From: Hydrogenophaga sp.
Lineage (GTDB): Bacteria > Pseudomonadota > Gammaproteobacteria > Burkholderiales > Burkholderiaceae_C
Assembly: GCF_018780075.1 (NCBI RefSeq)
Contig: NZ_JADMKB010000005.1
Span: 1 to 64,000, forward strand
DNA length: 64,000 nt
Reading direction: 5' to 3'
Below, piece after piece: positions 1 to 15,568 of this stretch (the stretch's first letter is position 1; every line of letters begins with the position of its first letter). The notes beneath the pieces were generated by a model that was given only the letters and a program-made list of their open reading frames with translations, was not told the DNA's origin and did not search any database. The position numbers and the translations under genes were made by a program.

Positions 1-57
1 ACGCCTGGAAAGCGTGTGTGGGCTAATCCCCACCGCGGGTTCGAATCCCGCCCTCCA
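1..57 (+). tRNA. tRNA-Ser(GGA) 3' portion, cut by window edge (probable island left boundary)
   Basis: The first 55 bases are identical to 15,507-15,561 inside a complete tRNA-Ser(GGA), covering the anticodon arm from its first bases, the variable arm and the T arm. After the T arm the sequence differs: the 3' acceptor strand reads cctccac instead of cctctcc, and no CCA is encoded. If the missing 5' strand is the usual ggagagg, two acceptor pairs would be mismatched. It is therefore either an attachment-site remnant or a tRNA with an altered acceptor stem. The upstream half lies outside the window, so the two cannot be separated. Confidence 0.75.
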
Positions 58-460: not shown

Positions 461-1018
461 TCACACCTCGTCGCTGTTTGAGGAAAGTGTCTTACGCTTG
501 CGACCAGTTCCTGGTTCAAGTTTTGAGCGGAGGCTATCTCGAAACGATTCCCAGTGTTTAACCTGCTCATCAAGCAACTCTGCACGAACACAGATTACAT
601 GGAGGCTGTATTTTTCGTGGGCCTGCTTAGCGAGCGGCACCGCTGGCTTCCCAAGTACGGCTGCAGAGATCCAGTATGCCTTGTTTACACCAAGGACATT
701 GATGGCCTCACCAAGACTGTCGCGGTCTTTGGGGTCGATCTCCCTCAGCCCCCACTTCAGTTCAATAGCGATCTTCGGCGTAGTTTCATGAAAGATCACT
801 ATGTCGACAAAGCGCCCCGTCTGCGGGACGTGACGACGGGCAGTTACAGTCCAGCTTTGGTCGACGTCGAGTAGTCGGCGAAGATGCATGTACGTCGCGC
901 ACTCGACGTCTGATTCACGTAGAAGCCGGTAGGCCTTCAGGTCCTTCCTCAGTAGCGCAGGAATCTTTTTGCGTACGTAGCTCTGCACTTGTTGGAGCGT
1001 GATTCGGGTGCGAGGCAT
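461..1018 (-). CDS. PD-(D/E)XK nuclease-like protein
   Basis: A 185-residue protein with the pattern of a PD-(D/E)XK nuclease core: an N-terminal helix carrying Glu39, then Asp72 in a beta strand (FVDIVIF), then Glu86-Leu-Lys88 (AIELKWG) in the next strand. The spacing D-x13-ExK fits the fold used by restriction enzymes, Holliday-junction resolvases and many anti-phage nucleases. A Lys/Arg-rich tail follows. No target-recognition domain is visible. No good Shine-Dalgarno precedes the ATG. It is the outermost gene of the island, on the same strand as the PIN-like and Ntn-like genes upstream, though separated by about 200 bp. The fold is inferred from the motif; the substrate is unknown. Confidence 0.6.
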   Translation of the reverse strand: MPRTRITLQQVQSYVRKKIPALLRKDLKAYRLLRESDVECATYMHLRRLLDVDQSWTVTARRHVPQTGRFVDIVIFHETTPKIAIELKWGLREIDPKDRDSLGEAINVLGVNKAYWISAAVLGKPAVPLAKQAHEKYSLHVICVRAELLDEQVKHWESFRDSLRSKLEPGTGRKRKTLSSNSDEV

Positions 1019-1221: not shown

Positions 1222-2067
1222 TCAAGGCCGTGAGCGGCCAGGCCAAATGGTTTTCCTGCTGGCAGTTAACCATTGCATATCTTCAGACGCAGCATTCACA
1301 CCGACTTCGCTGCTGAGAACGCCATCAAATGAAGTCCCCAGCAGAACGTAGTCTTGGTCTAGCAAGTCTCTTAGCACTGCATTTGGATTCGCTCCCTCGA
1401 TACCTCCATCGCCAAGCCATTGCAGAGCATGGTGAATGCGAAGCGTAATCCAGCGCCAGGTAAGACAGTTTTGCCGGCGCAATCGCGCAGCCTGTGAGTA
1501 TGTGAGGCTGTTCCTCGCCGCGAAAGCGTAAAAGGCAGAGCGCCCCATTCTGTGGGCGATCACGGCGCGTGCACCACGACCGACTCCAGTGGCTCTGCAA
1601 ACTGCCTGATCCCCTGCAGGCAAATTGTCTCTAAGAAATTGCACCCAACGTATCAATTCTTTCTTCGCTGCTTCAGCGTTCAGATCATTTTGCAGAAGCT
1701 CATCTCGAACAGCTGAGATTCTTGCTTCGAGATCAACCGGAAGTTGTGGGTCTTGACTGCTCTTGATTGCCATCCTTAGCAGATCTGTGAAAGCTGTTGG
1801 CAACAACTCTCTGCGAATAGGTCGCGCGTTCTTCATTTCCCACTTCACCGCTTCATCCACGGAGATCGACATATGGCAGCGGTTTGGAACAGTGCTCAAG
1901 AACCGGAGCCCTGCCTGCAGGGTAGTCTTCCATTTCACAGGCCTAACCAATTCGACAAGTGCCGTATCGATAAGTACGAACCTCACTGATTTATGTGCCA
2001 ATAGTGGAGGCAGAGGGCCCTTCTTACGTTGAAGGACGTTTTGGTCAAGTACAAGAAATTTTGTCAT
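1222..2067 (-). CDS. PIN-like domain protein, function unknown
   Basis: A 281-residue protein opening with a hydrophobic strand that ends in Asp8 (FLVLDQNVL), the classic first acidic residue of PIN-like nucleases. Further acidic residues follow (ALVELVRP near residue 37). Near the C terminus a segment of the type DQDYVLLGTSFDG resembles the strand and acidic loop that close the PIN active site. The centre is helical and rich in Lys/Arg, longer than in simple VapC toxins (about 130 residues). No antitoxin-like small gene is adjacent. Neighbours are a PD-(D/E)XK-like gene downstream and an Ntn-hydrolase/SEC-C gene upstream. The PIN assignment is tentative and RNase activity is an inference. 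Confidence 0.45.
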   Translation of the reverse strand: MTKFLVLDQNVLQRKKGPLPPLLAHKSVRFVLIDTALVELVRPVKWKTTLQAGLRFLSTVPNRCHMSISVDEAVKWEMKNARPIRRELLPTAFTDLLRMAIKSSQDPQLPVDLEARISAVRDELLQNDLNAEAAKKELIRWVQFLRDNLPAGDQAVCRATGVGRGARAVIAHRMGRSAFYAFAARNSLTYSQAARLRRQNCLTWRWITLRIHHALQWLGDGGIEGANPNAVLRDLLDQDYVLLGTSFDGVLSSEVGVNAASEDMQWLTASRKTIWPGRSRP

Positions 2068-2364: not shown

Positions 2365-3273
2365 CTACTGCCTCCGAGGCCGGTGGCAAAACCTGTACTT
2401 CTTCCCGCTCCCGCACGGACAGAGTGCGTTCCGATGCACGACCGGGTACACGACCGGCACATCCGTAGTGAGTTGGAGTTGGCTGATCAATAGGTCAGTA
2501 CCCCCCGTCCGTGCGTCGAGCATGTCCAGCATTGGAATTCCCTGTTCGACAATGTCGCTTTCATAACCTGCGCATGCAATCAGTGGTGAGCGATAGTCGA
2601 TCCTTCCTGTGTTAAGGCGTTTTCCTACAGTCCCAGCCGAGCGGGGTCGGTCAGATATCTCACCTACGATGGCAGTGGCCTTCGCCCGGATCGCGGCATG
2701 TGGCGCACGTTTCTCAAGCAACTGTCGCAACTCGCGCTCGTCCACGTCGGTCATGGCGTTGAATGCACCTATCGCCTGGATCATTGTTGGGTTTTCAGAA
2801 GCCGGCATATTGCTTAGCTCGCAGTGGACAGTGAACTGTGGCTGCGCAGCAGGGTGGTCAATGAAGTTGACGAAATCCTGAAAGTTTGAAATCAAAGCGC
2901 TGACGATGTGTCCGCGCGAGGTGTACCCGGACAGCATCACAGTTAATCTTCGTTGCTTGACTGGCGCAGAGAGCACGTCCGGATTCGATCTGAAGTACTC
3001 AGTCGCTAGATCGGCGAAATGCTCGATCAGCTCGCGGAATCGCGCGTCCTTCTTAGCCGCGGCTTGCAATGCCTCCATCAGCCAAGTTGAAGTATTGAAT
3101 CCGCGGAAGGTGGCGAGACCGGTGAAGCTGTACAGAACAGACGCGTCGTCGCACAGGAGGTGCCCGACTTTGCCTGATGCCTCGGTGAACACGGAGCCAT
3201 CCCACCCTGTGAGGCGCCGGTCACTTACTTGGATGATTTGGTCCGCGTTGGCTAGTACGAGAGCGAAGGTCAT
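2365..3273 (-). CDS. Proteasome-like Ntn-hydrolase domain protein with C-terminal SEC-C zinc motif
   Basis: I place the start at the ATG at 3273; the frame is open further upstream but only through a TTG and another in-frame ATG. With this start, removal of Met exposes Thr as residue 1 (MTFALVLANADQ). Asp falls at position 17 (VSDRRLTG) and Lys at 34 (SGKVGHL). That is the Thr1/Asp17/Lys33 arrangement of proteasome beta subunits and HslV. The C terminus ends in a SEC-C motif, CPCGSGKKYRFCH (Cys285, Cys287, Cys296, His297), a zinc site found in SecA and many uncharacterised proteins. At 302 residues it is longer than HslV (about 175), with an unassigned middle part. No HslU-like ATPase is nearby. 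The protease role and partners are unknown. Confidence 0.6.
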   Translation of the reverse strand: MTFALVLANADQIIQVSDRRLTGWDGSVFTEASGKVGHLLCDDASVLYSFTGLATFRGFNTSTWLMEALQAAAKKDARFRELIEHFADLATEYFRSNPDVLSAPVKQRRLTVMLSGYTSRGHIVSALISNFQDFVNFIDHPAAQPQFTVHCELSNMPASENPTMIQAIGAFNAMTDVDERELRQLLEKRAPHAAIRAKATAIVGEISDRPRSAGTVGKRLNTGRIDYRSPLIACAGYESDIVEQGIPMLDMLDARTGGTDLLISQLQLTTDVPVVYPVVHRNALCPCGSGKKYRFCHRPRRQ

Positions 3274-3431
3274 GGCCCGCATTCTCGCGCGGCTGCAGCC
3301 AGCCTCCAAACAGACGCGCGTCGGACGGGTCTGGACTTCACAGTAGCACAGTCGATTCCGGCCCCACGCAACCTAGAAGCGCAAACGCCAGAGCCATATC
3401 AACTTGGCTGCGCATTGCGTAACGGCACCCA

Positions 3432-3658
3432 TCAGGTCAGGGCCAGACAGGATTTGCGGCGGTTATGATCTTTGATGGCGTGACAGCGATCCGGTGACCC
3501 CTTGGTTTTCGCAAGACACTCATTGCGCCGGTCGCCATCCTTGATGCGGTAGCAATATTCATGGTTCTGCCGGGCCAGCCCCAGGCAGTATGCCCTCTCG
3601 TCCCCATCCTTGCCACGGCGACCATGCAAAGCGGCACAAGGAGGCTACTTCTCGCCAT
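3432..3658 (-). pseudogene. Frameshifted copy of the cysteine-repeat protein encoded at 6315-6617
   Basis: In one frame the 3' part encodes ERAYCLGLARQNHEYCYRIK and later Cys repeats, nearly identical to residues 45 onward of the intact paralogue at 6315-6617. The upstream part, in a different frame, encodes its signal-like start (LLVPLCMVAVARMG). Aligning the DNA shows a deletion of roughly 45 bp in this copy, between the signal segment and the second repeat, which removes the first Cys repeat and shifts the frame. It is therefore a broken duplicate, unless the 65-residue frame is still translated from an internal start. Confidence 0.65.
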
Positions 3659-3688
3659 ATGGGCAACTGCCTTGGTGCTGGGATTGCA

Positions 3689-3811
3689 TCAGGCCCCGGC
3701 AACAGCCTTGGGAATGTCCGAGCCGCAGTGCTTGCAGCGCGTGGCCTGCAGCCTGACCGTCTCCGCGCAGTAGGGACAGACCGCCTGATCGGACTCGTAG
3801 GTGATGGCCAT
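3689..3811 (-). CDS. 40-residue zinc-ribbon microprotein
   Basis: An open frame of 40 codons from ATG 3811 encodes a compact two-knuckle zinc ribbon: CPYC at residues 12-15 and CKHC at residues 28-31, followed by GSDI. Four cysteines in a CxxC-x12-CxxC arrangement fill most of the protein. The Shine-Dalgarno is weak (acaggtaag). It lies between the broken cysteine-repeat copy and the truncated domain copy at 3821-4165, on the same strand. Small zinc ribbons of this kind usually bind nucleic acid or partner proteins, but nothing here shows which. Confidence 0.5.
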   Translation of the reverse strand: MAITYESDQAVCPYCAETVRLQATRCKHCGSDIPKAVAGA

Positions 3812-3820
3812 TTATATGGC

Positions 3821-4165
3821 TTACCTGTAGTCACAGACGTTGTCGAACTTGGCCTGCTCTTCTCCGGCAGTGCAAATGCTCAACCGCCGCTCGCCTCGCT
3901 GCCATTCGAATCTGCACATGGCCAACCCTGTTCCGCTGCAAGACTGCATTTCTGGACGGCCCTGGCATCGTGAGTCATCCTTCATGCACTCGTCCGCATC
4001 TTTGGAAATCACCGGCTGCCAGCCATCACGCAGCAGCGTTTCTCGCACCTGTGCATAGGGCCGACCTTGTGTGAAGTTTCGAATGGGGCGCACGTACATC
4101 CGAGTTTGAGTGCATTCATCAACTGCATGCGGTGCGTTGGGCATGACCACGGATAGGGGCATCAA
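3821..4165 (-). pseudogene. Truncated duplicate of the C-terminal domain of the membrane protein at 6614-7546
   Basis: From about 4080 down to the stop this frame encodes a domain nearly the same as residues 232-310 of the 310-residue protein at 6614-7546. Shared blocks include YAQVR, DGWQP, CQGRPEMQSCSG, GLAMCRF and CTAGE. The membrane anchor, linker and first two thirds of the intact protein are missing and are replaced by unrelated sequence (4085-4165) that overlaps the opposite-strand nucleotidyltransferase fragment. It is best read as a truncated relic of a duplication. A free-standing soluble domain gene cannot be excluded because the frame is open and has ATG codons. Confidence 0.6.
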
Positions 4166-4777: not shown

Positions 4778-5104
4778 CTATTGACCAACAAACCGGCCAT
4801 TGGGGGTCATCACGCAACGACTTCCAGCTACGAACGAGCCGTCAGGGCACATGACCATTCCGCCACCGCCCTGTACGAAGGTACCGTTTGGTGTCATACG
4901 CGGACCTTGGCGGGTTTCGGGTACGAACTGGCCATTTGGCGCCATCTGACAACGTCCTCCGCCGCCGATGAAGGTCCCATCCGGACATATCACACATGGC
5001 CCCTTTGACACGAAACTGCCGTCAGGGCACATGACCTGTGCCAAAGCGGCCTGGGATGTCAACATGCCTACACTTATCGCAAGCAACAGACTTTTCGCAT
5101 TCAT
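4778..5104 (-). CDS. Small secreted protein built of six (M/I)xP(D/N)GxF(V/I) repeats
   Basis: The ATG at 5104 has a strong Shine-Dalgarno (ggggag, 7 bases upstream). The 108-residue product opens with a clear Sec signal peptide (basic start, LLLAISVGML core, cleavage near AALAQ). The mature part is six short repeats of the form MCPDGSFV, ICPDGTFI, MAPNGQFV, MTPNGTFV, MCPDGSFV and MTPNGRFV, separated by Gly/Cys-containing linkers. About six cysteines could form disulfides in the periplasm or outside the cell. I do not recognise the family. It stands alone between a truncated gene and the HEPN-like gene. Confidence 0.7.
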   Translation of the reverse strand: MNAKSLLLAISVGMLTSQAALAQVMCPDGSFVSKGPCVICPDGTFIGGGGRCQMAPNGQFVPETRQGPRMTPNGTFVQGGGGMVMCPDGSFVAGSRCVMTPNGRFVGQ

Positions 5105-5202
5105 CAATCTACTCCCCCCACAAAAATCGGATGATGTCTGAGTTTAGGCGCAGGCAAACTATTCCCTAGAATAATTTTCTGGGAGATAACATTACCGCTG
5201 CG

Positions 5203-6314: not shown

Positions 6315-6617
6315 TCATCGAATCAGAGTTAGACAGATATGTCGGCTGTCCGGGTCCTTGATGGTGTAGCACCGATCCCGTGACCCCTTGGTTTTCGCGA
6401 GACACTCATTGCGACGATCAGCATCCTTGATCCGGTAGCAGTAGTCATGGTTCTGCCTGGCCTCTCCCAGACAGTACGCCCTTTCGTTCGCATCCTTGAT
6501 CGAGTAGCACACCGAAGCGCTCGCCATGGCCTCCCCCATCCATGTCACGGCGACCATGCAAAGCGGCATTAGAAGACCACCTCTCACCATAGTGCCGATG
6601 GTCACAGGCGCCCTCAT
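6315..6617 (-). CDS. Exported cysteine-repeat protein coupled to the upstream membrane protein gene
   Basis: The start at ATG 6617 overlaps the stop of the upstream gene as ATGA, implying coupled translation. The 100-residue product begins with a hydrophobic export segment (GGLLMPLCMVAVTWMG, probable cleavage after AMASA). It then carries three to four repeats of about 21 residues of the type C(Y)xIKDxxxRxxCL (CYSIKDANERAYCL, CYRIKDADRRNECL, CYTIKDPDSRHICL). Each repeat has two cysteines, probably forming disulfides in the periplasm. A broken paralogue lies at 3432-3658. Function unknown; co-expression with an anchored protein that has its own Cys-rich domain suggests the two act together. 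Confidence 0.7.
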   Translation of the reverse strand: MRAPVTIGTMVRGGLLMPLCMVAVTWMGEAMASASVCYSIKDANERAYCLGEARQNHDYCYRIKDADRRNECLAKTKGSRDRCYTIKDPDSRHICLTLIR

Positions 6618-7546
6618 TCGCAAACGCTGTAGAACTTTGCCTCGTTCTCTCCAGCGGTGCAGACAGCCAGCCGCTGCCCTTCACGCTGCCACGTGAATCT
6701 GCACATGGCCAGCCCTGACCCGCTGCAAGACTGCATTTCTGGACGTCCTTGGCATCGGGAGTCATCCTCCATGCACTTATCTGCATCTTCGGAAATCAAC
6801 GGCTGCCAGCCATCTCGCATGAGCACCACGCGCACCTGAGCGTAAGACTCGCCGCGAGCGAATGGCGGGACCGGACTGAGTTTGGGGGTTGGCTGAACCT
6901 GGGCGGCGGATTCAGCATTGGAGGGTGGGGACTGAGTACGCCCCTCTGGAGCAATACGAGCCACTTGAAGCGGTGCACGATCTTGCTCCGCAACTGCCTT
7001 CCCAGTCGCCTTTTGCCATGATCCTGCATACGTCCAATATCTCTGCCCTTGGTATGTGACCTGCACACGCAGGGGCTCGCTGAAGGGTTGAGCTTGATCC
7101 GAGGATGGCCAATCTGTCCAATTGACTTTCACAGGGTCTCCGTGCGTCACCTCCAAGCAATGCCCCTGAGCGATCTTGCGCAGGATCTCCAGTCTGAGTG
7201 CTGTTGCATCGCGACGCGTAAAGCTGTCGCTGGAAATGATGCCCGCCAGTATCTCCGGCTGGTGGCGGTAGTTTTCCATCAGCGCTTGGTTTGTCACATC
7301 CTCGGCATCCATGATTGCATCAAATGACTGCTGCTGGCTGCACAGCAATGCAGGCTCCTTCAGGGCGGGGCGCAGTTCCAACTCCAATTCCAGAGACGAT
7401 ATGTGCCAAGTAAACGGTGCCGTGGCCACTAACACCAGCGCGGACCAAGCCAGGATTACCCTCGTCTTGCCCATCTGTCCCTGCGCCCACGTGGCCGATG
7501 ACCAGGCCCGCAAGGATTTCCATTTGGCGGCTATGTAGTTCTTCAT
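6614..7546 (-). CDS. Inner-membrane-anchored protein with C-terminal cysteine-rich domain
   Basis: A 310-residue protein with a short cytoplasmic N terminus, one transmembrane segment at about residues 30-46 (ILAWSALVLVATAPF), a helical periplasmic region, a Pro/Ser/Gln-rich linker (about 190-230) and a compact C-terminal domain (232-310). That domain has six cysteines and the motifs YAQVR, DGWQP and CQGRPEMQSCSG. The start overlaps the integrase stop by 4 bp, and its stop overlaps the next start by 4 bp. A truncated second copy of the C-terminal domain lies at 3821-4165. The family is not recognised. Its position directly behind an integrase makes it cargo co-transcribed with mobility functions. 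Confidence 0.7.
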   Translation of the reverse strand: MKNYIAAKWKSLRAWSSATWAQGQMGKTRVILAWSALVLVATAPFTWHISSLELELELRPALKEPALLCSQQQSFDAIMDAEDVTNQALMENYRHQPEILAGIISSDSFTRRDATALRLEILRKIAQGHCLEVTHGDPVKVNWTDWPSSDQAQPFSEPLRVQVTYQGQRYWTYAGSWQKATGKAVAEQDRAPLQVARIAPEGRTQSPPSNAESAAQVQPTPKLSPVPPFARGESYAQVRVVLMRDGWQPLISEDADKCMEDDSRCQGRPEMQSCSGSGLAMCRFTWQREGQRLAVCTAGENEAKFYSVCE

Positions 7547-8871
7547 TGCGGTACTCCCTCAAGTTGCTTCTGTTGATCAGTTGTTGTTGGTACGGGGTTG
7601 CTAGAGCCCAGACTGACGGTCTGGGTCGCTGCTGCATGACCGTGGGCGTAGTCCGCCCAGTCCTGCATGAGCTGCTGACGCTTGCCGAACAGGTCACCAC
7701 GCCGGTAGGCCGCTTCCACCTTGTTGCCCACCGCATGGGCCAGGGCCATTTCCGCTACCTCGTTCGGATAGTCCGTCTGCTCCGCACACCAATCACGGAA
7801 CGTGGAGCGAAACCCATGCGGCACTGCCGCCAGCTTCAAGCGACGCAAGACCGCCGTGAGCGTCATGTCCGAGAGTGGGCTGCCCAGTTCAGGGTCGCGG
7901 CTGTTGGGGCTGGGGAACACGTAGGCTTTGCCCGTGGTGCGCCCTGCTGCTAACGTGAGGGCCTGCATTTCTTGCAACAAGGCCATGGCTGCGTCCGACA
8001 GCGGCACGCGATGGGGCTTGCTGGCCTTCATGCGTTCGGCGGGAATCGTCCACATGCGCGCCTCCAGATCAATCTCATCCCAGGTCGCTCCCCGAACTTC
8101 TCCTGAACGAGCCGCCGTCATGATCACGAATTGCAGGGCCTTGGCGCCCCTGCCCTCCTGAGCCATCAACTGCTCCATGAAGGCTGGCAGTTGGGCGTAA
8201 GGCAGCGCCTCGAAGTGTGTGGTCTTGGTCACTTTGCCCGGAGCCGGCAACAGCTTGTCCAACAGGCCCTTCCAGCGGGCGGGATTGGAGTCCGTGCGGA
8301 AGCCCCGTGCGATGGCCCAGTCGATGATGGATTCGATGCGCCCCCGTAAACGGGTGGCGGTCTCGGTCTTGCTGGCCCAGATCGGCTCCAGCACCTTGAG
8401 CACCATCGGCAGCGACACATCCCGCACCGGCACCTTGCCCAATACCGACATGGCGTACATGTCCAGCGACCGTTGCCACTGCTGCGCGTGTTTTGCGTTC
8501 TTCCAGCCCTTCTCGTGCGAAGCGATGTAGCGCTTGGCGGCATCCCCGAAGGTCATGCTGGCGTGGATTTCTGCGGCTAGGCGCGCCCTCGCCCGCCGCG
8601 CATCCTCAACCGGGTCGATGCCCTGGGCCAGCTTCGCCCGAGCAGCTCGTGCCGCCTCCCGGGCATCGGCCAGCGTGACGGACGGATAGGAGCCGAGCCC
8701 AAAGTCCCGACGTTTGCCTGCCACCTGATAGCGCAGCAGCCAACTGCGCGAGCCGTACATCGTGACGTTGAGGATCAGGCCGCGCACGCCGCCCACGTGA
8801 TTGGTGCCGCGGCGCCAAATGGTGGCCACCTGGGCAGCGCCCAGCTCCTTGCGTGGCTCGTGGGGCGTCAA
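7543..8871 (-). CDS. P4-type tyrosine site-specific integrase
   Basis: A 442-residue integrase with the N-terminal arm-binding domain of P4-like integrases (about residues 25-90: GVRGLILNVT, DFGLGSYPSVTLADAREAA), a core-binding domain (105-200) and a catalytic domain. The catalytic set is complete: Arg255 (AARSGEVRG), Lys282, His352-x2-Arg355 (HGFRSTF), His379 and nucleophile Tyr389. Enzymes of this class insert islands at tRNA 3' ends, which fits the duplicated tRNA-Ser segment at both ends of this region. It overlaps the upstream 86-residue gene and the downstream membrane protein gene by 4 bp each, forming one operon. All catalytic residues are present, so it may be active. Confidence 0.93.
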   Translation of the reverse strand: MTPHEPRKELGAAQVATIWRRGTNHVGGVRGLILNVTMYGSRSWLLRYQVAGKRRDFGLGSYPSVTLADAREAARAARAKLAQGIDPVEDARRARARLAAEIHASMTFGDAAKRYIASHEKGWKNAKHAQQWQRSLDMYAMSVLGKVPVRDVSLPMVLKVLEPIWASKTETATRLRGRIESIIDWAIARGFRTDSNPARWKGLLDKLLPAPGKVTKTTHFEALPYAQLPAFMEQLMAQEGRGAKALQFVIMTAARSGEVRGATWDEIDLEARMWTIPAERMKASKPHRVPLSDAAMALLQEMQALTLAAGRTTGKAYVFPSPNSRDPELGSPLSDMTLTAVLRRLKLAAVPHGFRSTFRDWCAEQTDYPNEVAEMALAHAVGNKVEAAYRRGDLFGKRQQLMQDWADYAHGHAAATQTVSLGSSNPVPTTTDQQKQLEGVPQ

Positions 8872-9128
8872 GATTTTGCCTCCGGGAAGCTCCAGCCTGG
8901 GGGCTCATAGATCAGCACCTGCCACTCGCACTCGGTGGCACAAGCCAGGACGGAGGCATCCCCATCCATGGCGATCAGCTCACCCTCAACGTCGCGTGTG
9001 CCGCTCTTGGAAAGCCATTCGTTCCAGACGCGCAAGCGCGAGATCATCCCGGTGCCGGGCTGGTAAAGGTAGGCGAACCTCAAAGGCTCGGGGGCCAGGG
9101 GCACTCCCTGCTGGATGGTGTCAGACAT
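8868..9128 (-). CDS. Small hypothetical protein upstream of and coupled to the integrase
   Basis: The frame is open further upstream, but ATG 9128 has a Shine-Dalgarno (ggag, 9 bases away) and opens the conserved-looking part (MSDTIQQGVPLAPEPLRFAY). The product is 86 residues, acidic, with two Trp-containing blocks (RVWNEWLSKSG, WQVLIYEPPGW). The stop overlaps the integrase start as ATGA. Its position suggests an excision or integration cofactor, but it has no helix-turn-helix or AlpA-like motif, so I leave it unassigned. Confidence 0.55.
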   Translation of the reverse strand: MSDTIQQGVPLAPEPLRFAYLYQPGTGMISRLRVWNEWLSKSGTRDVEGELIAMDGDASVLACATECEWQVLIYEPPGWSFPEAKS

Positions 9129-9331
9129 GGTGATCAACTCCGTTTCGGTAGTGCTTAGTGCCAAAATTTTCATCAGAGGAAGACAGGCGCGCTGATACGC
9201 CGCGATGACGGCCCGGGTGGCGATGCGGGACAAGGCAGGGGGCGGGTTTTCTTGCCGTAGATGGCAAGAACGCATTCCGGCAATGGGGTGCATGGAGGGG
9301 GGAACAATGGGTAGCACAACCCACCGTCGCC

Positions 9332-9892
9332 TCAGGCTGGCTCGTAGGCCTCCAGCGTCCAGCTGTAGCTCAGGTACACGGGGTGGCGAGGATGGCCGTT
9401 CGCGGTCAGGTCACCGAATCGGCGCCATTGGGGGGCGTACTTTGCCAACCGTTGGAACAGCTCATCCCGAGCCCGGATGAGATACGGGCGGTTCACCACG
9501 GACTCACCCCAGGCCGCCCATATGGTGGGCGTGGCATGTTGCGCGACGGCCTTTTCGATTTCGTCCAGATTGCGCTCATAGGCCACGGGATCGGCCTTGG
9601 GTGGCAGGTCTTGGGGCTTGGTGGCCCGCACCGGGTAGAGGTTGAGCATGACGAAGCCATCGAATCCGCATTGCTGCGCCACCTTCTGCACCCGGGTGAC
9701 GGTGGGGTCGAGCTTCTCCTGGGTGGCAGTGCTTGGATTGAGGCCGATGACCAGCAGCGGACGCTTGCCAGTGGTGCCCAATGTGTATCGCCATTGGTCG
9801 TCGCGGTCGCAGTGGTAGACGTCGTACATGGAGTCCTTCAGTTCGTCGGCCCATTCCGCTCTGGAAGGAGGCCTCAGATCATTTTGTACCAC
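9332..9892 (-). CDS. DUF1643 family protein
   Basis: A 186-residue protein starting with GTG, matching the DUF1643 family: a DDQWRY block, then LLVIGLNPSTATQEKLDPTV (residues 46-65), then GFDGFVMLNLYPVRATKP and a TIWAAWGE strand. The family is widespread in phages, plasmids and islands and has no established biochemical function that I know of. It is divergent from an XRE regulator whose start is only 45 bp away, so the two probably share a control region. Confidence 0.8.
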   Translation of the reverse strand: MVQNDLRPPSRAEWADELKDSMYDVYHCDRDDQWRYTLGTTGKRPLLVIGLNPSTATQEKLDPTVTRVQKVAQQCGFDGFVMLNLYPVRATKPQDLPPKADPVAYERNLDEIEKAVAQHATPTIWAAWGESVVNRPYLIRARDELFQRLAKYAPQWRRFGDLTANGHPRHPVYLSYSWTLEAYEPA

Positions 9893-9937
9893 ATATGCAG
9901 GTGCATAAAGTAGCCTAGCAAAGGACAGTCCCTGCCC

Positions 9938-10174
9938 ATGGGCCGGGACGAGTTATTGATCGCTGCGTTTGCCGATGAGCTTCGCTCCCGGCGAGCAGCA
10001 TTGCGTCTGTCTCAGGAAGAACTCGCTCACCGGGCAGGTATCAACCGAACGTATGTCGCCAAGTTAGAGCTGGCGAGAAATCAACCCACCTTGACGGTCA
10101 TGCTCCGCGTGGCGGAGGCATTGGAGACACCGCTCCCCGAGTTGATTGCCGGCGCCCTTGCTCGCCGGGGGTAG
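9938..10174 (+). CDS. XRE-family helix-turn-helix regulator
   Basis: A 78-residue single-domain regulator. The helix-turn-helix occupies residues 10-65 (LRSRRAALRLSQEELAHRAG, INRTYVAKLELARNQPTL), and the C-terminal PLPELI segment is typical of Cro/C1-type and restriction-modification controller proteins. It is divergently transcribed from the DUF1643 gene and likely represses that promoter and its own, as is usual for this family. It could also act on the integrase operon; nothing in the sequence settles this. Confidence 0.85.
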   Translation: MGRDELLIAAFADELRSRRAALRLSQEELAHRAGINRTYVAKLELARNQPTLTVMLRVAEALETPLPELIAGALARRG

Positions 10175-10188
10175 CCACCCACAAGCAC

Positions 10189-10488
10189 TCAGCGGCCGGC
10201 CGTGTGCTCGCAGTGCTCCCATGGCGGCACATCGCACCCGCAGTCCGGCAGGACCGTGGCGGCTGCCAGAGGGCTTACTTTCAGGGGCATTGGTGCAGCT
10301 TTAGGCGTCGCCGCCCTCGGCGACTGTTGGGCCGTCTGGAACGCAGCCACCTCCGGCACCCAGCGAGCAAACCGGTTGAGGTCCGGGGGATCAATCACAT
10401 ACCAGACCTTGAGATTCGAGTCCCAACGGGCACCGGCGGCCTTCGCGGCATCTTTCTCTGCAAATGGGACCTTCAGGTCAACTCTCAT
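10189..10488 (-). CDS. DUF5710-domain protein
   Basis: A 99-residue protein whose first 45 residues match the DUF5710 domain (RVDLKVPFAEKDAAKAAGARWD, LKVWYV, FARWVPE), common in plasmid and conjugative-element proteins, often attached to primases or DNA-binding proteins. A Pro/Ala-rich linker leads to a Cys/His-rich end (CGCDVPPWEHCEH) that may bind metal. Probably DNA-related, but the function is not established. Confidence 0.7.
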   Translation of the reverse strand: MRVDLKVPFAEKDAAKAAGARWDSNLKVWYVIDPPDLNRFARWVPEVAAFQTAQQSPRAATPKAAPMPLKVSPLAAATVLPDCGCDVPPWEHCEHTAGR

Positions 10489-10726
10489 TCAGACTCTCCG
10501 TGGTACGGCGGTGGATGGCTATGGATGGCACTGCCCGGAGTTGCTGCCGTGTCCAGAGAGCAACTGGTGGTACGCCCATGACACCGGGTGATAGCATGCT
10601 GCGCTGTGGGCCTCGTCGGGCCAAAGAGGATACCCGGCGGGCCTCTCGAAGGAGCATTTGCGCCATTCATGGCAATCACCCGCTTCGCTTCTCCGGCTCC
10701 AGCATCCATCCATCCATCCGTTGCCT

Positions 10727-10745
10727 CCCCCCTCTTTAAGGGGGG
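10727..10745. terminator. Short hairpin, possible terminator or origin element
   Basis: A perfect 7-bp stem (ccccccT / Aggggggg) closes a 5-nt loop (cttta). No T-run follows on either strand, so termination is uncertain. It sits directly beside the cggatg repeat array. Confidence 0.35.
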
Positions 10746-10748
10746 GAA

Positions 10749-10798
10749 CGGATGAACGGATGCGGATGAGCGGATGAGCGGATGAACGGATGCGGATT
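10749..10798. repeat. Array of six cggatg units plus one variant
   Basis: Six exact cggatg units occur at 10749, 10757, 10763, 10771, 10779 and 10787, followed by cggatt at 10793, spaced 6 or 8 bp. The array lies 20 bp beyond the stop of a RepA-like ATPase gene. Regularly spaced direct repeats near a replication ATPase recall iterons, but simple slippage could also produce this pattern. Confidence 0.6.
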
Positions 10799-10817
10799 GC
10801 CCCCAACCTCGGGACGG

Positions 10818-12155
10818 TCAATCCGGACTGACGAATCGAAACTCGCCATCGGTCAACTGCTCCAGGCGTCCCGACTTGCGGAAGTGCTCGACGGCCCTCT
10901 TCACGTCCCGGGTGTGGTACTCGGAAACACCTAGGCAAGCTTGCTGGGCCTCTTCCAGCGAGAAACTGACGCTGCCCTTCGTGCGGTCAGCCCACAACTG
11001 CTCCAGCACGACAAGAATCCGTTTCTGCAGATCCGTCGGCCCCCTTGCGCCGGACTTCGTTGCCGGGGCGAAGGCAGGCTCTGCGACTGCCACTGCCGTC
11101 CCTGACCTTGATCCCGCCCCTCGCTTCTTGCCGCCCGCCGATGGCTTCTTCGGCCTCCCCGAGGATGGCGCCTCATCGCTGGTGAAGGGCCTACCGTGCT
11201 GCACGACCACTGACGACCAATCCGGCCGATCGGGCACCTGCGCAGGCTCCAACTCGAACCATCCCCCAAAGCCCTCTTCGCCGTCCCGCTGCTTCTCCAT
11301 CTTCCAGTAGCGCCCATCCTTGCGACGCTTGATGCTGATTGAGGTGTCCACGCCTCCACGGATGGCGGTGGCGCCCCGTTCATGGCTTTCATTGTGACCC
11401 GTATGGTGTGTGAGCAGTACCGTCGCCCCAGTTGCCCATGAAAGACGCTTGGCATTCTCGATTACTGCTGCCATGTCTCTATTGGAGCTCTCATCCATCT
11501 TGCCGGCAAGCGCGGCAGCTAGTGTGTCAATGATGATGAGCTGACTGGAGTACCTCGCCGCGGAGGCCGCCAGTCGAACCAGGCTGTCGTCATCGGCAAG
11601 ATCGACCGGTTCGAACAGAAAGCGCAGTCGAAACAAAGGCGATGGTCGGGTGTCGTGGTGCTCAACAGCCGCCAGCACTCGGTTGCGAAACCCCTCAGCT
11701 CCTTCCATCGCGCAGTACAGCACGCCTACGTTGTGGACGGGGCGACCCGCCCACTCGTCGCGGGCGGAGATCGCCAGCATGAGGTCAATGAGCCAGGCGG
11801 TCTTGCCTGCTCCGGAAGGGCCCCAGACCATGACGATGGAGCCCAAATGGAACAGCCCTTCTACGATCCATTTCAGACCCTCCCACCCCTCCAACTCATG
11901 CAAACCGTAGGTCTTGTATCCCTTTACACCCACAGGTATGGCCTCGAAAGGCGCGGGTCGACCAAGATGATGACCGCGCAGAGATGGCGAGGCAGGAGCC
12001 GGGCTCTCCCGCTCGACAAGCGTCTCGGCATCAGGCGGAAATTCCCCTGAGGGCTCACCGAGGTCGTGAGGAACGAACAGGAGGCCGCCATCCTCATCAT
12101 CATTGGTGGTTTCCGCATCGGGAGCAGGTTGCTTGCTTCTCTTCGTTGGGGCCAT
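10818..12155 (-). CDS. RepA-like AAA/RecA-fold ATPase (hexameric helicase family)
   Basis: I choose ATG 12155 (MAPTKRSKQ); the frame is open to a GTG at 12221. The 445-residue product has an acidic N-terminal tail, then a RecA-fold domain with Walker A GPSGAGKT (112-119) and Walker B LIIIDTLAAAL (about 207-217). A HHTGHNESHERGATAIRGGVD block is typical of RSF1010 RepA/AAA_25 helicases. A Lys/Gly/Ala-rich linker leads to a C-terminal winged-helix-like segment. Such proteins serve as replicative helicases or DNA-stimulated ATPases of mobile elements. It is divergent from the ParB-like/methyltransferase pair. Confidence 0.8.
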   Translation of the reverse strand: MAPTKRSKQPAPDAETTNDDEDGGLLFVPHDLGEPSGEFPPDAETLVERESPAPASPSLRGHHLGRPAPFEAIPVGVKGYKTYGLHELEGWEGLKWIVEGLFHLGSIVMVWGPSGAGKTAWLIDLMLAISARDEWAGRPVHNVGVLYCAMEGAEGFRNRVLAAVEHHDTRPSPLFRLRFLFEPVDLADDDSLVRLAASAARYSSQLIIIDTLAAALAGKMDESSNRDMAAVIENAKRLSWATGATVLLTHHTGHNESHERGATAIRGGVDTSISIKRRKDGRYWKMEKQRDGEEGFGGWFELEPAQVPDRPDWSSVVVQHGRPFTSDEAPSSGRPKKPSAGGKKRGAGSRSGTAVAVAEPAFAPATKSGARGPTDLQKRILVVLEQLWADRTKGSVSFSLEEAQQACLGVSEYHTRDVKRAVEHFRKSGRLEQLTDGEFRFVSPD

Positions 12156-12535
12156 GGTGCTAGAGGCAAATATCAGGGATGTTGTGCAAGGACTTCGTGT
12201 GCCCAACCACAAGGTGCCCACTTACATGTAGGAACGAGGGGGAGCGCGAGGGAGAGCGATAGAGGACAGCTTACGCCACGAGCACGGCGATCACCTATTT
12301 GCAGTGGTTGGGAGCGTCGTTCTGCCTTGCGGATGAGTCGGCAGCATCTGTTCCATTCAGTCGGCATCAGGGCAGCAAGCGGCTATCGGGCGGTGCAATC
12401 TGACTGGCCGGTCCAAGCTGGATCAGGGCAGTAAGTTCCCAATCCTAAGCCGGACCCATGATTCCATGCGCAGTGATAATCACAGCAAACGGAAGTGCCT
12501 CCAACGAGGGGCAAATTACCACCACAGGGAGCAAG
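12156..12535. other. Intergenic region between the divergent ATPase and ParB-like genes
   Basis: A 380-bp region that must hold the promoters for both flanking genes. I see no credible gene, strong dyad or repeat in it. The downstream end carries the ParB-like gene's Shine-Dalgarno. Confidence 0.45.
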
Positions 12536-13945
12536 ATGGCAAGTCGAAAACAAACGCCCCAAGGCGGCGCCCCAGTCCAGCAATTTGCCTCGAATGTTCC
12601 AGGCGAGTATCGAATCATTGATATCAAGCGCCTACACCTGAATCCTGAGAATCCGCGCCATTCCCCAATGGAGCGTCAGCCAGAGATCATCAAGGCGCTG
12701 TACTCCAGTGAGGAGGTGCAGGCGTTGGCGAGGGATATCGCCAACCGCGGTGCCCTTAGCCCCTTGGATGTGCTCGGGGTCTACGAAATGCCTGACCATC
12801 CTGGCCACTACGTCACACTGGAGGGCAACAGGCGGACCTGTGCAGTCATCCTACTGGCTGATCCTGCACGGGCGCCGACGCCAGACGCGCGAGCCTACTT
12901 GGAGGGCGTAGCGCAAGGGCGGTCTGTCCCGACGCAGGTGCCTGCGTTTGTGTTTCCTGCCAAGGAGGCAGCAGATCAGTGGATTGACCTGAGGCACATG
13001 GGCGCACAAGGCGGTGTCGGCACCCGACCCTGGAGCGCCGACCAGCAGGCCAATGCCTTGGCCCGACGCAACGGTGGCGGCCCAGTCACGGCTGCGGCTC
13101 GACAAAACTTGCTGGCTCACGCTGTTCTTATGCGGCTGAGAGAGACGGGCCATGTTTCCCCAGAGCAGTATCAGGCTGCTAGCCTGACCACAATTGCGCG
13201 ATATCTCACGACTCCCGCAGTGCGGGCTCTGCTGGGCCTGGCCCACCACGAACGATTGGAGTACACCCATGAGCCAGCCGAGGTGGAAGGCGCGCTCCAA
13301 CGCTTGGTACTCGATAGCCTAGAAAAGCGCCACGGCGAAGATCATCTGAGGGTAACTTCTCGCTCCAATGCCGATGGTCGGCGCGCTTACGCCCAAGGCC
13401 TAGCTGCAGAAGGGAATGCTCCCACCTCCCTGCTCTCGTCGCCCGTTGCGCCGCCAGCAATCACCAAGCCAGCGACTAAGTCAGCACGCCCTACGAGCGC
13501 CCGCAACCCCAATCTAGAGACACGCTTGCTGACGACAGCATTCACCGTCAACCACGACGACAAGGTGCTCGGATACTTGCGGCAAGAGATGCTCAAGCTG
13601 AAGGTGGCAGAGCATCCGTTTGCGTGCAACTACCTCCTGCGTGCCTTCGTGGAGCGAGTCATGACGCTCTTCCTGATCAAGCGAGGTGCCCACCGCGACA
13701 AGATGAGTGATCGGGATTTGACTCAAACTTGCGCGCGTGAAATGTTGGACGCGGGCGCGAAGCGTGGCACACATGACATCATGAACAAGGCAGGTTCCAA
13801 CGATGCAACGCCCTACAACTTGGCCTGCCTTGGGGCCGCCATCCATGGGGGTCATATTCCCACGCAGCGCGATCTAGTGAAGTACAGCCACACATGGCAG
13901 CCTGCCCTTCGGTTCATGCTGGACCACATGGCAAATATTGCCTAA
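12536..13945 (+). CDS. ParB/sulfiredoxin-like domain protein
   Basis: ATG 12536 follows a strong Shine-Dalgarno (aggga, about 7 bases away); the frame is open about 80 bp further upstream. In the 469-residue product the N-terminal domain matches the ParB/Srx fold: IDIKRLHLNPENPR (28-41), EEVQALARDIANRG (59-72), and the phosphate-binding signature LEGNRR (95-100) in place of GERR. A middle helical region and a Ser/Pro/Ala linker (about 300-345) lead to a C-terminal domain (350-469) I do not recognise. ParB-like domains of this kind can act as CTP-dependent clamps or as nucleases. It stands 46 bp before the D12 methyltransferase start, and the two look like one operon. Confidence 0.65.
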   Translation: MASRKQTPQGGAPVQQFASNVPGEYRIIDIKRLHLNPENPRHSPMERQPEIIKALYSSEEVQALARDIANRGALSPLDVLGVYEMPDHPGHYVTLEGNRRTCAVILLADPARAPTPDARAYLEGVAQGRSVPTQVPAFVFPAKEAADQWIDLRHMGAQGGVGTRPWSADQQANALARRNGGGPVTAAARQNLLAHAVLMRLRETGHVSPEQYQAASLTTIARYLTTPAVRALLGLAHHERLEYTHEPAEVEGALQRLVLDSLEKRHGEDHLRVTSRSNADGRRAYAQGLAAEGNAPTSLLSSPVAPPAITKPATKSARPTSARNPNLETRLLTTAFTVNHDDKVLGYLRQEMLKLKVAEHPFACNYLLRAFVERVMTLFLIKRGAHRDKMSDRDLTQTCAREMLDAGAKRGTHDIMNKAGSNDATPYNLACLGAAIHGGHIPTQRDLVKYSHTWQPALRFMLDHMANIA

Positions 13946-13991
13946 AGGAGGTCCTGACCAAGAGGCCAGGACTTCAATATCCTCGCGCGCA

Positions 13992-14864
13992 ATGCCCGTA
14001 ACCTACTCCCCCCTTCGCTACCCTGGCGGCAAGACCCAACTTGCGCCGTTCGTCCTGGATCTGATCCAGGCGAATGGCCTATATCAGGGCGTCTACTGCG
14101 AGCCATTTGCTGGCGGAGCTGGCGTTGCCTGGCAACTGTTGCTGGACGGACATGTCTCCGAAGCTTGGATAAACGACCTTGACCCAGCCATACATGCGTT
14201 CTGGAGCGCGGTGCTTGACGAGACTGATGCACTGTGTGAATTGGTGGAGAGTACTCCCGTCACCATTGATGAATGGCACTCGCAGCGAGCTACCCTGCAG
14301 GCCGATAGCGTCACACCGCTGCAGCGCGGATTCGCCGCGCTTTTCATGAACCGCACCAACCGTTCCGGCATCCTCAAGGGTGGCGTGATCGGAGGGCTGG
14401 GGCAGACAGGAAACTACGCGCTGGATTGTCGATTCAACCGAAAAGAGCTTGTCCGCAAGATCAAGCGAATTGGCTCCTACCGCGCGGTGATCCGCCTCTC
14501 TCGCCTTGACGCCGCTGAATGTTTGAAAGAATGGGATAAGGCGCTACCCAAGCGCGCCTTGATCAATATTGACCCGCCTTACTTTGCACAGGGCCATGCC
14601 CTCTATCTGAATTTCTACAAGGCAGAGGACCATGGCGACTTGGCCAAGGTTGTTCGAGGCTTGCGGCACCATTGGATGGTGACCTACGACAACGTACCCG
14701 AGATCTCTAGGCTTTACCAGGGCCTGCCACAGCACGCCAGCAGCCTGATCTATTACGCTCAGATCAAGCGCAGAGCTAACGAATTGATGGTGCTGTCACC
14801 TTTGCTGGCGCTTCCCATGGAGGCCGATTCAGTCACCAAGCGTATTTCGCGCCTTGAGGCTTGA
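13992..14864 (+). CDS. D12-class (Dam-like) DNA adenine N6-methyltransferase
   Basis: The start at ATG 13992 (MPVTYSPLRYPGGK) is chosen because the D12 family begins with this block; the frame is open to 13938. The 290-residue product has RYPGGK (9-14), AdoMet motif I EPFAGGAG (37-44), an acidic NDLDPAIHAFW block, and catalytic motif IV DPPY (194-197). It transfers a methyl group from AdoMet to adenine N6, in a sequence context that cannot be read from the protein. No cognate restriction gene is recognisable beside it; the preceding ParB-like gene is the obvious partner candidate. The 3' end abuts the truncated paraslipin gene at the island's right edge. Confidence 0.85.
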   Translation: MPVTYSPLRYPGGKTQLAPFVLDLIQANGLYQGVYCEPFAGGAGVAWQLLLDGHVSEAWINDLDPAIHAFWSAVLDETDALCELVESTPVTIDEWHSQRATLQADSVTPLQRGFAALFMNRTNRSGILKGGVIGGLGQTGNYALDCRFNRKELVRKIKRIGSYRAVIRLSRLDAAECLKEWDKALPKRALINIDPPYFAQGHALYLNFYKAEDHGDLAKVVRGLRHHWMVTYDNVPEISRLYQGLPQHASSLIYYAQIKRRANELMVLSPLLALPMEADSVTKRISRLEA

Positions 14865-14904: not shown

Positions 14905-15438
14905 CAAGAGCGCGACATCATCAACGCGCAGATCGTGCAGGCCATCGACGAAGCCGCGCTCAACTGGGGTGTCAAGGTGCTGCGCTACGAAATCAAGGAC
15001 CTCACGCCACCGAAGGAAATTCTTCACGCCATGCAGGCACAGATCACGGCCGAGCGCGAAAAGCGCGCCCTGATCGCCGCGTCCGAAGGACGCCGCCAAG
15101 AGCAGATCAACATCGCCACTGGCGAGCGTGAAGCCTTCATTGCACGCTCCGAGGGTGAAAAGCAGGCGGCCATCAACAGTGCTCAGGGTGAAGCGGCCGC
15201 CATCACCGCGGTGGCCGACGCCACCGCCCAAGCCATCGAGCGCATCGCCATCGCGATCCGCCAACCTGGGGGTGAACAGGCCGTGCAGCTGAAAGTGGCC
15301 GAGCGCGCGGTGGACGCCTACGGCAAGGTGGCGGCCGACGCGACCACCACGCTCATCATCCCCGGCAACATGAGTGAGGTCTCGGCGTTGATCGGTTCGG
15401 CGATGAAGATGGTCGGCACCATCAAAACGGGCGGCTGA
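14905..15438 (+). pseudogene. 3' fragment of a paraslipin (SPFH/Band 7, QmcA-like) gene
   Basis: From about 14,905 the frame encodes the C-terminal part of a Band 7/paraslipin protein: ERDIINAQIVQAIDEAALNW, VLRYEIKDLTPPKEIL, the AEREKRALIAASEGRRQ coiled coil, and the conserved SEVSALIGSAMKMV end. The membrane anchor and most of the SPFH domain, roughly the first 120-130 residues, are missing. The upstream sequence belongs to the methyltransferase side of the island, so 14,865-14,905 is a recombination junction. Translation could start at an ATG at 14,854 or 14,891, but a functional protein is unlikely. A complete copy may lie just left of the window beside the other tRNA-Ser copy. Confidence 0.8.

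Positions 15439-15478: not shown

Positions 15479-15568
<90 letters not shown>

Follow-up and report, generated by a model that had tools for sequence, protein, structure and literature searches.

A gene close to the start of a 64,000-nucleotide stretch of Hydrogenophaga sp. DNA (the whole stretch analysed, here called the window) raises the question of whether a mobile element can carry a proteasome-like protease of its own, one that ends in a SEC-C motif and stands alone. The reading that we favour, at somewhat better than even confidence, is that the product of this gene (the window protein) is a proteasome-like, though distantly related, Ntn hydrolase, and that a mobile island carries the gene as cargo. 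Its sequence signature, the conservation of that signature in most members of the family, the SEC-C motif and the location in an island are the demonstrated part of this picture (Table 1).

Table 1. Features of the window gene and of the island around it, in window coordinates.
Feature	Coordinates	Strand	Source or remark
Copy of the 3' part of tRNA-Ser as a direct repeat, at the end of the contig; probable attachment site	1..55	plus	
Second neighbour, uncharacterised	461..1018	minus	sub-threshold Pfam matches only
Downstream neighbour, uncharacterised protein	1222..2067	minus	two Cupriavidus plasmids encode distant relatives (about 30% identity)
Window gene (CDS), putative proteasome-like Ntn protein with SEC-C tail	2365..3273	minus	302 aa, stop included in coordinates
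SEC-C metal-binding motif, CxC-x8-CH	2377..2433	minus	PF02810, E 9.9e-07
S-F-T-G, mature residues 48-51, aligned with HslV G-F-A-G, Ser in place of the first Gly	3118..3129	minus	
Codon of Lys34 (mature numbering), putatively equivalent to Lys33 of the proteasome	3169..3171	minus	profile alignment
Codon of Asp17 (mature numbering)	3220..3222	minus	
Codon of Thr1, which follows the start Met and is the proposed nucleophile	3268..3270	minus	
Phage-type integrase of the island	7543..8871	minus	Pfam
PD-Lambda-5 A and B defence genes, same island, upstream of tRNA-Ser	12458..14864	plus	PADLOC, A E 6.9e-142, B E 1.5e-115
Same 55-base repeat within the tRNA-Ser(GGA) gene (15479-15568)	15507..15561	plus	

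The first-pass annotation had placed the start of the gene at ATG 3273 and proposed that removal of the methionine exposes Thr1, with Asp17 and Lys34 where proteasome subunits need them. The open reading frame and its start are borne out, relatives also beginning with M/V-T (seven of the eight, the exception being a protein from Opitutaceae), and all three residues stand in the translated frame at the positions named. The C-terminal SEC-C motif, likewise predicted, occupies residues 281-299 and scores 29 bits against a curated Pfam cut-off of 20.4. The combination T1, D17 and K32-35 occurs at 2 of the 498 in-frame Met positions of the window, one of them a chance match within the integrase gene; since the triad arises by chance, it is weak rather than decisive evidence, and the motif alone was rejected as proof of Ntn identity. 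A stricter signature, the triad plus [FY][TA]G at residues 41-58, gave 15 matches at 3208 Met positions of 110 sequences, all of them in the window-protein family or in HslV; this sample is enriched in relatives and counts some genes several times through overlapping loci. The residue just before [FY][TA]G, which we take to be the catalytic oxyanion-hole glycine (Gly47), is Gly in six of the eight members that bear the triad, Ala in one (L097) and Ser in the window protein, where by alignment Ser48 sits at the oxyanion-type position instead of a glycine.

Searches with the single protein recognized its tail only. PF00227 did not match in Pfam at E values up to 1, and SEC-C was the sole match anywhere in the protein at that limit. 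NCBIfam, PHROGs and PADLOC likewise returned the SEC-C tail only, bar one weak NCBIfam match at residues 46-115 (E 0.15) that was taken as chance; in PADLOC the core matched no defence family, the matched part lying within residues 277-299 of the tail. A PDB search found the tails of SecA and YchJ, no proteasome chain, and a weak match to a phage head decoration protein (E 1.3). In a full-length search of 40 relatives, every match apart from the window's own gene ended in the SEC-C region, and the core (residues 1-278) was therefore used in later searches.

These core searches led to eight distinct relatives and thus to a family of nine members. The closest relative found is a protein from an Opitutaceae MAG (L013), with 38% identity to the window protein in the best segment. 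The protein gp30, present in nine Gordonia phage records, and a protein from a Mycobacterium marseillense plasmid were each reached from the window protein at E 0.2, and gp30 at E 8e-36 from the plasmid relative; the two were the sole tblastn matches in their collections, with residues 1-278 as query and no motif patterns. Viral contigs supplied two further members, L020, discovered with a pattern that includes SDRR, and L031, reached via L029 (59% identity). Members from genomes were found by profile: L023 (E 6.3e-6), L029 (E 0.006) and L097 (E 8.9e-4), the last a protein without SEC-C tail from the window's own bacterial family. These profile matches covered only residues 1-75, 1-85 and 1-93, respectively; together with the pattern used for L020, this means that the conservation described below was partly selected for. 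Judged from sequence, direct comparison is strong for the Opitutaceae link only, and the other members would belong through weak steps, strong mutual links and a shared N-terminal pattern. The weak profile matches L015, L016, L022, L028, L030 and L096 were left out of the member counts. Viral scans with the window core, P0003 or the alignment of the SEC-C branch found no relative, two other viral scans recovered already known loci only, and neither tblastn of plasmids with L029 and P0007 nor tblastn of phages with L029 gave a match.

When 330 genomes of the order and 329 of the family were searched by profile, L097 and one short, stop-containing match turned up in addition to the window gene; the 330 genomes of the order held no member except the window's own gene. 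The description of the gene as unusual thus holds within the genomes searched.

Eight of the nine members (the window protein and seven relatives) have Thr after the start, Asp at exactly position 17, Lys at positions 33-39 and then [FY][TA]G. The ninth, the Opitutaceae protein, is the only other SEC-C-tailed relative found; it begins with Met-Ala, and Gly and Ala replace Asp17 and the lysine. The first-pass annotation had asked whether Thr1, Asp17 and Lys34 are invariant among homologues; Thr1, Asp17 and a lysine at 33-39 are kept in all members except this one. The earlier proposal had named homologues lacking the threonine after the methionine as grounds for giving up the Ntn assignment, and in part this has come about, the one such homologue being the closest relative and itself SEC-C-tailed.

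The Opitutaceae sequence also gives reason to consider a pseudo-enzyme, in which the Ntn fold of the SEC-C branch would have become a binding module, catalysis would be dispensable, and tail and fold would together hold a partner. It retains ANADQIIQVS, GHLxCDD, RRLTxMxSGYT and the SEC-C motif but has neither T1 nor D17 nor the lysine, its gene faces Pup-ligase/Dop-type and PrcA-like genes in convergent orientation, and the window protein in turn has Ser at the oxyanion-type Gly position. However, the window protein keeps T1, D17 and K34, L097 has an intact triad despite its Ala at the oxyanion position, and two SEC-C-tailed sequences give no readable trend. We regard the loss of catalysis as rather unlikely for the window protein, and retain the reading as a proteasome-like hydrolase in which Thr1 would be catalytic.

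Profile comparisons connect the family with HslV. The HslV and Anbu profiles were built from the loci that passed the pattern, 29 out of 30 for HslV and 13 out of 20 for Anbu, together with one host sequence for each; all others were dropped. A profile of seven members (without the Opitutaceae protein and L097) aligned in register with the HslV profile, residues 2-53 against 2-50, with a score of 26.8 (P 0.0044); none of 200 shuffles of the HslV columns scored as high, the maximum being 24.1. Adding L097 gave an HslV score of 26.5, the best of 200 shuffles then reaching 25.8, and exchanging L097 for the Opitutaceae protein weakened the match (P 0.016). A five-member profile found nothing when compared with single HslV and Anbu sequences, and a profile search of PDB sequences yielded two weak matches, among them an HslV that aligned in register (E 1.3). 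Between Anbu profiles and those of the window family the active-site regions failed to align, and no sequence match was significant. The same method leaves Anbu and HslV themselves unconnected (score 12.9) and must be called conservative, since it misses the relation between two accepted homologues.

That the best profile match is a peptidase weighs against a role as a specific Thr1 amidase, acylase or transpeptidase, instead of a general protease. Proteins with Ntn folds differ in function, however, and one of the proteasome-like family, connectase, is a ligase (PMC8665760). Moreover, the absence of an adjacent AAA unfoldase, remarked upon at first pass, is confirmed: the only AAA protein among the ten Pfam-scanned window ORFs is an AAA_25 ATPase (10818-12221), more than 7 kb away, and none of the ten encodes an unfoldase. 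We consider such a specific activity unlikely; the window protein is treated below as a candidate peptidase.

Two AlphaFold2 models were obtained from very shallow alignments, model 1 of the full-length protein (4 sequences, mean pLDDT 39.1), which is too weak as a basis, and model 2 of residues 1-232 (5 sequences, mean pLDDT 53.4, with blocks of 70-86 only within residues 61-130). In Foldseek searches with these low-confidence models, chains from proteasome entries took ranks 1-6 for model 1 (best E 0.049) and Anbu ranks 1-2 for model 2 (best E 0.019), PP2C-type phosphatase domains following close behind with similar scores; neither model had a match at E 0.001 or better. The order of predicted elements, i.e., strands, helix pair, strands, helix pair, together with these matches suggests, without establishing, an Ntn alpha-beta-beta-alpha fold. 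An unrelated alpha/beta protein with a coincidental triad is very improbable: the three residues alone do arise by chance in the window and the weak models also match PP2C/SpoIIE-type phosphatases, but the conservation at exact positions in eight of nine divergent members (though partly selected for), the outcome of the shuffle control and a four-part signature free of unrelated matches all speak against it.

The Ntn assignment of the first-pass annotation thus survives in tempered form. Homologue conservation, the in-register HslV match and the fold searches argue for it, each being weak or moderate alone, while the missing PF00227 match, Ser48, the low confidence of the models and a SEC-C relative without the triad argue against it. 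On sequence and predicted structure, the window protein is most likely a proteasome-like Ntn hydrolase, Ser48 in place of the oxyanion glycine being the reason why we call family membership likely and not certain.

The island that carries the gene is bounded by a 55-base repeat of tRNA-Ser(GGA), which is exact and present in two copies in the whole draft genome; the contig begins exactly at one of them. Between the defence genes and the tRNA lies the 3' part of an SPFH gene (14906-15438; stomatin-like, named by eye), which stands in full length (305 aa) before tRNA-Ser in a genus relative (G021); in this draft genome neither its 5' part nor the DNA upstream of it could be located. Another genus relative (L042) has an integrase-like gene, assigned by eye, after the same tRNA-Ser (2569-3501), so that the site looks like an integration hotspot. 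The island also contains two duplicated, diverged stretches (3430-4057 and 6316-6844; 79%), one of which holds a gene for a small Cys-rich repeat protein; by eye, the duplicate near 3430 seems decayed. A further small protein (4778-5107), again judged by eye, consists of CPDGSFV/TPNGTFV-type repeats after a signal-like N terminus.

Neighbours of the window gene had been called nuclease-like, a label that was not confirmed: for the product of 461-1018 all Pfam matches stay below threshold (HSDR_N, E 0.086; Ubie_methyltran, E 0.022), and that of 1222-2067 has no Pfam match. An operon of the three genes was considered and dropped, and no linkage is claimed; the gaps are about 300 and 200 bases, and the accompanying scan counted 2 promoter-like sites where 1.5 were expected and 7 terminator-like sites where the expectation was 3.2. 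Elsewhere in the host genome HslV with HslU and a separate Anbu are encoded. Since the host retains these, the island gene is no replacement for them.

Several relatives also reside in mobile DNA. The gene for gp30 lies less than 1 kb from the excise gene and no more than 3.5 kb from the integrase gene of its phage, with a tail gene on its other side; L020/L026 is near capsid, portal and terminase genes, L031 is flanked by a tape-measure gene and an adjoining integrase, L097 comes after a baseplate-hub gene, and the plasmid copy has a recombinase gene nearby. Four of the five mobile contexts (gp30, L020/L026, L031 and the plasmid) come from phage, viral or plasmid collections, which biases this picture; the window's island was not so sourced. 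Of the five members that genome collections supplied, the window gene and L097 are in mobile-type DNA, L013 and L023 not obviously so, and L029 is counted in neither group. L023 is about 1.6 kb from hslV, which hslU follows; in its genome, one of the window's phylum, L023 lies between a RhuM-family gene and genes for a ThiF-family protein, HslV and HslU (L099, 2965-8973). In the Opitutaceae MAG, divergent Pup-ligase/Dop-type and PrcA-like genes adjoin the SEC-C-tailed relative and are convergent with it (8897-11116). The two loci near HslVU or Pup-proteasome genes are a lead that could be due to chance.

If the protein is the active hydrolase that we favour, methionine aminopeptidase would remove the start Met, and the exposed Thr1 would act as nucleophile, tuned by Asp17 and Lys34 as in HslV and the proteasome. 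Peptides would then be cut (or transferred) without a dedicated AAA partner. The SEC-C tail may act in docking, delivering to the active site SecB-like chaperones, chains that are nascent or unfolded, or some other partner, and the likeliest use would be the selective removal of unfolded or foreign proteins, to the benefit of the mobile element or its host. A defensive role is suggested only by the location in an island that also holds the integrase and PD-Lambda-5 genes. In a wider scheme, which we think doubtful, a SEC-C-tailed proteasome-like Ntn protein spread by mobile elements would use its SecA-type tail to recruit unfolded chains associated with SecB or the ribosome. It would cooperate with the housekeeping self-compartmentalising proteases or oppose them, and in some hosts it would be a catalytically inactive partner of the Pup-proteasome.

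The survey of Fuchs, Alva and Lupas (2021, PMC8665760) describes 22 proteasome-like subfamilies, many of which show low pairwise similarity to known members; for many uncharacterised branches its authors found no genomic context that suggests a function. A branch in which a docking motif can be recognised gives experiments a direct point of entry, as the tail suggests testable partners, namely SecB, the ribosome or Sec substrates. Likewise, a connection between mobile elements and protein degradation in the host becomes open to test through the phage, plasmid and island locations and the two loci that have HslVU or Pup-proteasome genes nearby. The main text of the survey contains neither "SEC-C" nor "zinc". 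In the open-access literature searched, no paper on a SEC-C-tailed proteasome-like Ntn hydrolase was found, no such fusion is apparent from titles or abstract openings of the SEC-C-protease literature, and no paper joins proteasome-like proteins to anti-phage defence; the string "sec-c" in the BPH paper (PMC5777263) stands for "SEC-coupled" in the passage concerned.

Compared with known systems, the window family shares with HslV T1, D17, Lys33 and GF[AT]G in register. The window protein differs from HslV in length (302 aa, against 171-176 aa mature in three HslV sequences) and in having neither an HslU partner nor a PF00227 match. Anbu resembles it in the Met-Thr start, in S-D-x-R around Asp17 and in the Foldseek ranks of low-confidence model 2, but has no significant sequence match to the family and is encoded separately in the host. 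The tails of SecA, YchJ and YecA carry the same CxC-x8-CH motif, those of SecA and YchJ being the tails matched in the PDB search; in the window protein SEC-C is instead joined to an Ntn-like domain. By its description, the phage-borne proteasome-like protein of the survey has about 140 residues (PMC8665760), against 302 in the window protein. The Distant Actinobacterial proteasome Homolog (DAH; reference WP_085249540.1) is described there from Actinobacteria, Proteobacteria and phages; it carries an additional domain at the C terminus, to which no known structure matches (PMC8665760). Relatives of the window protein include Gordonia phage and Mycobacterium plasmid proteins, a likeness to DAH in distribution only, and by distribution and description DAH is the likeliest of the published subfamilies in or near which the window family probably has its home. 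As far as our searches reach, the new part is the SEC-C-tailed form, represented by two sequences, of a known proteasome-like kind.
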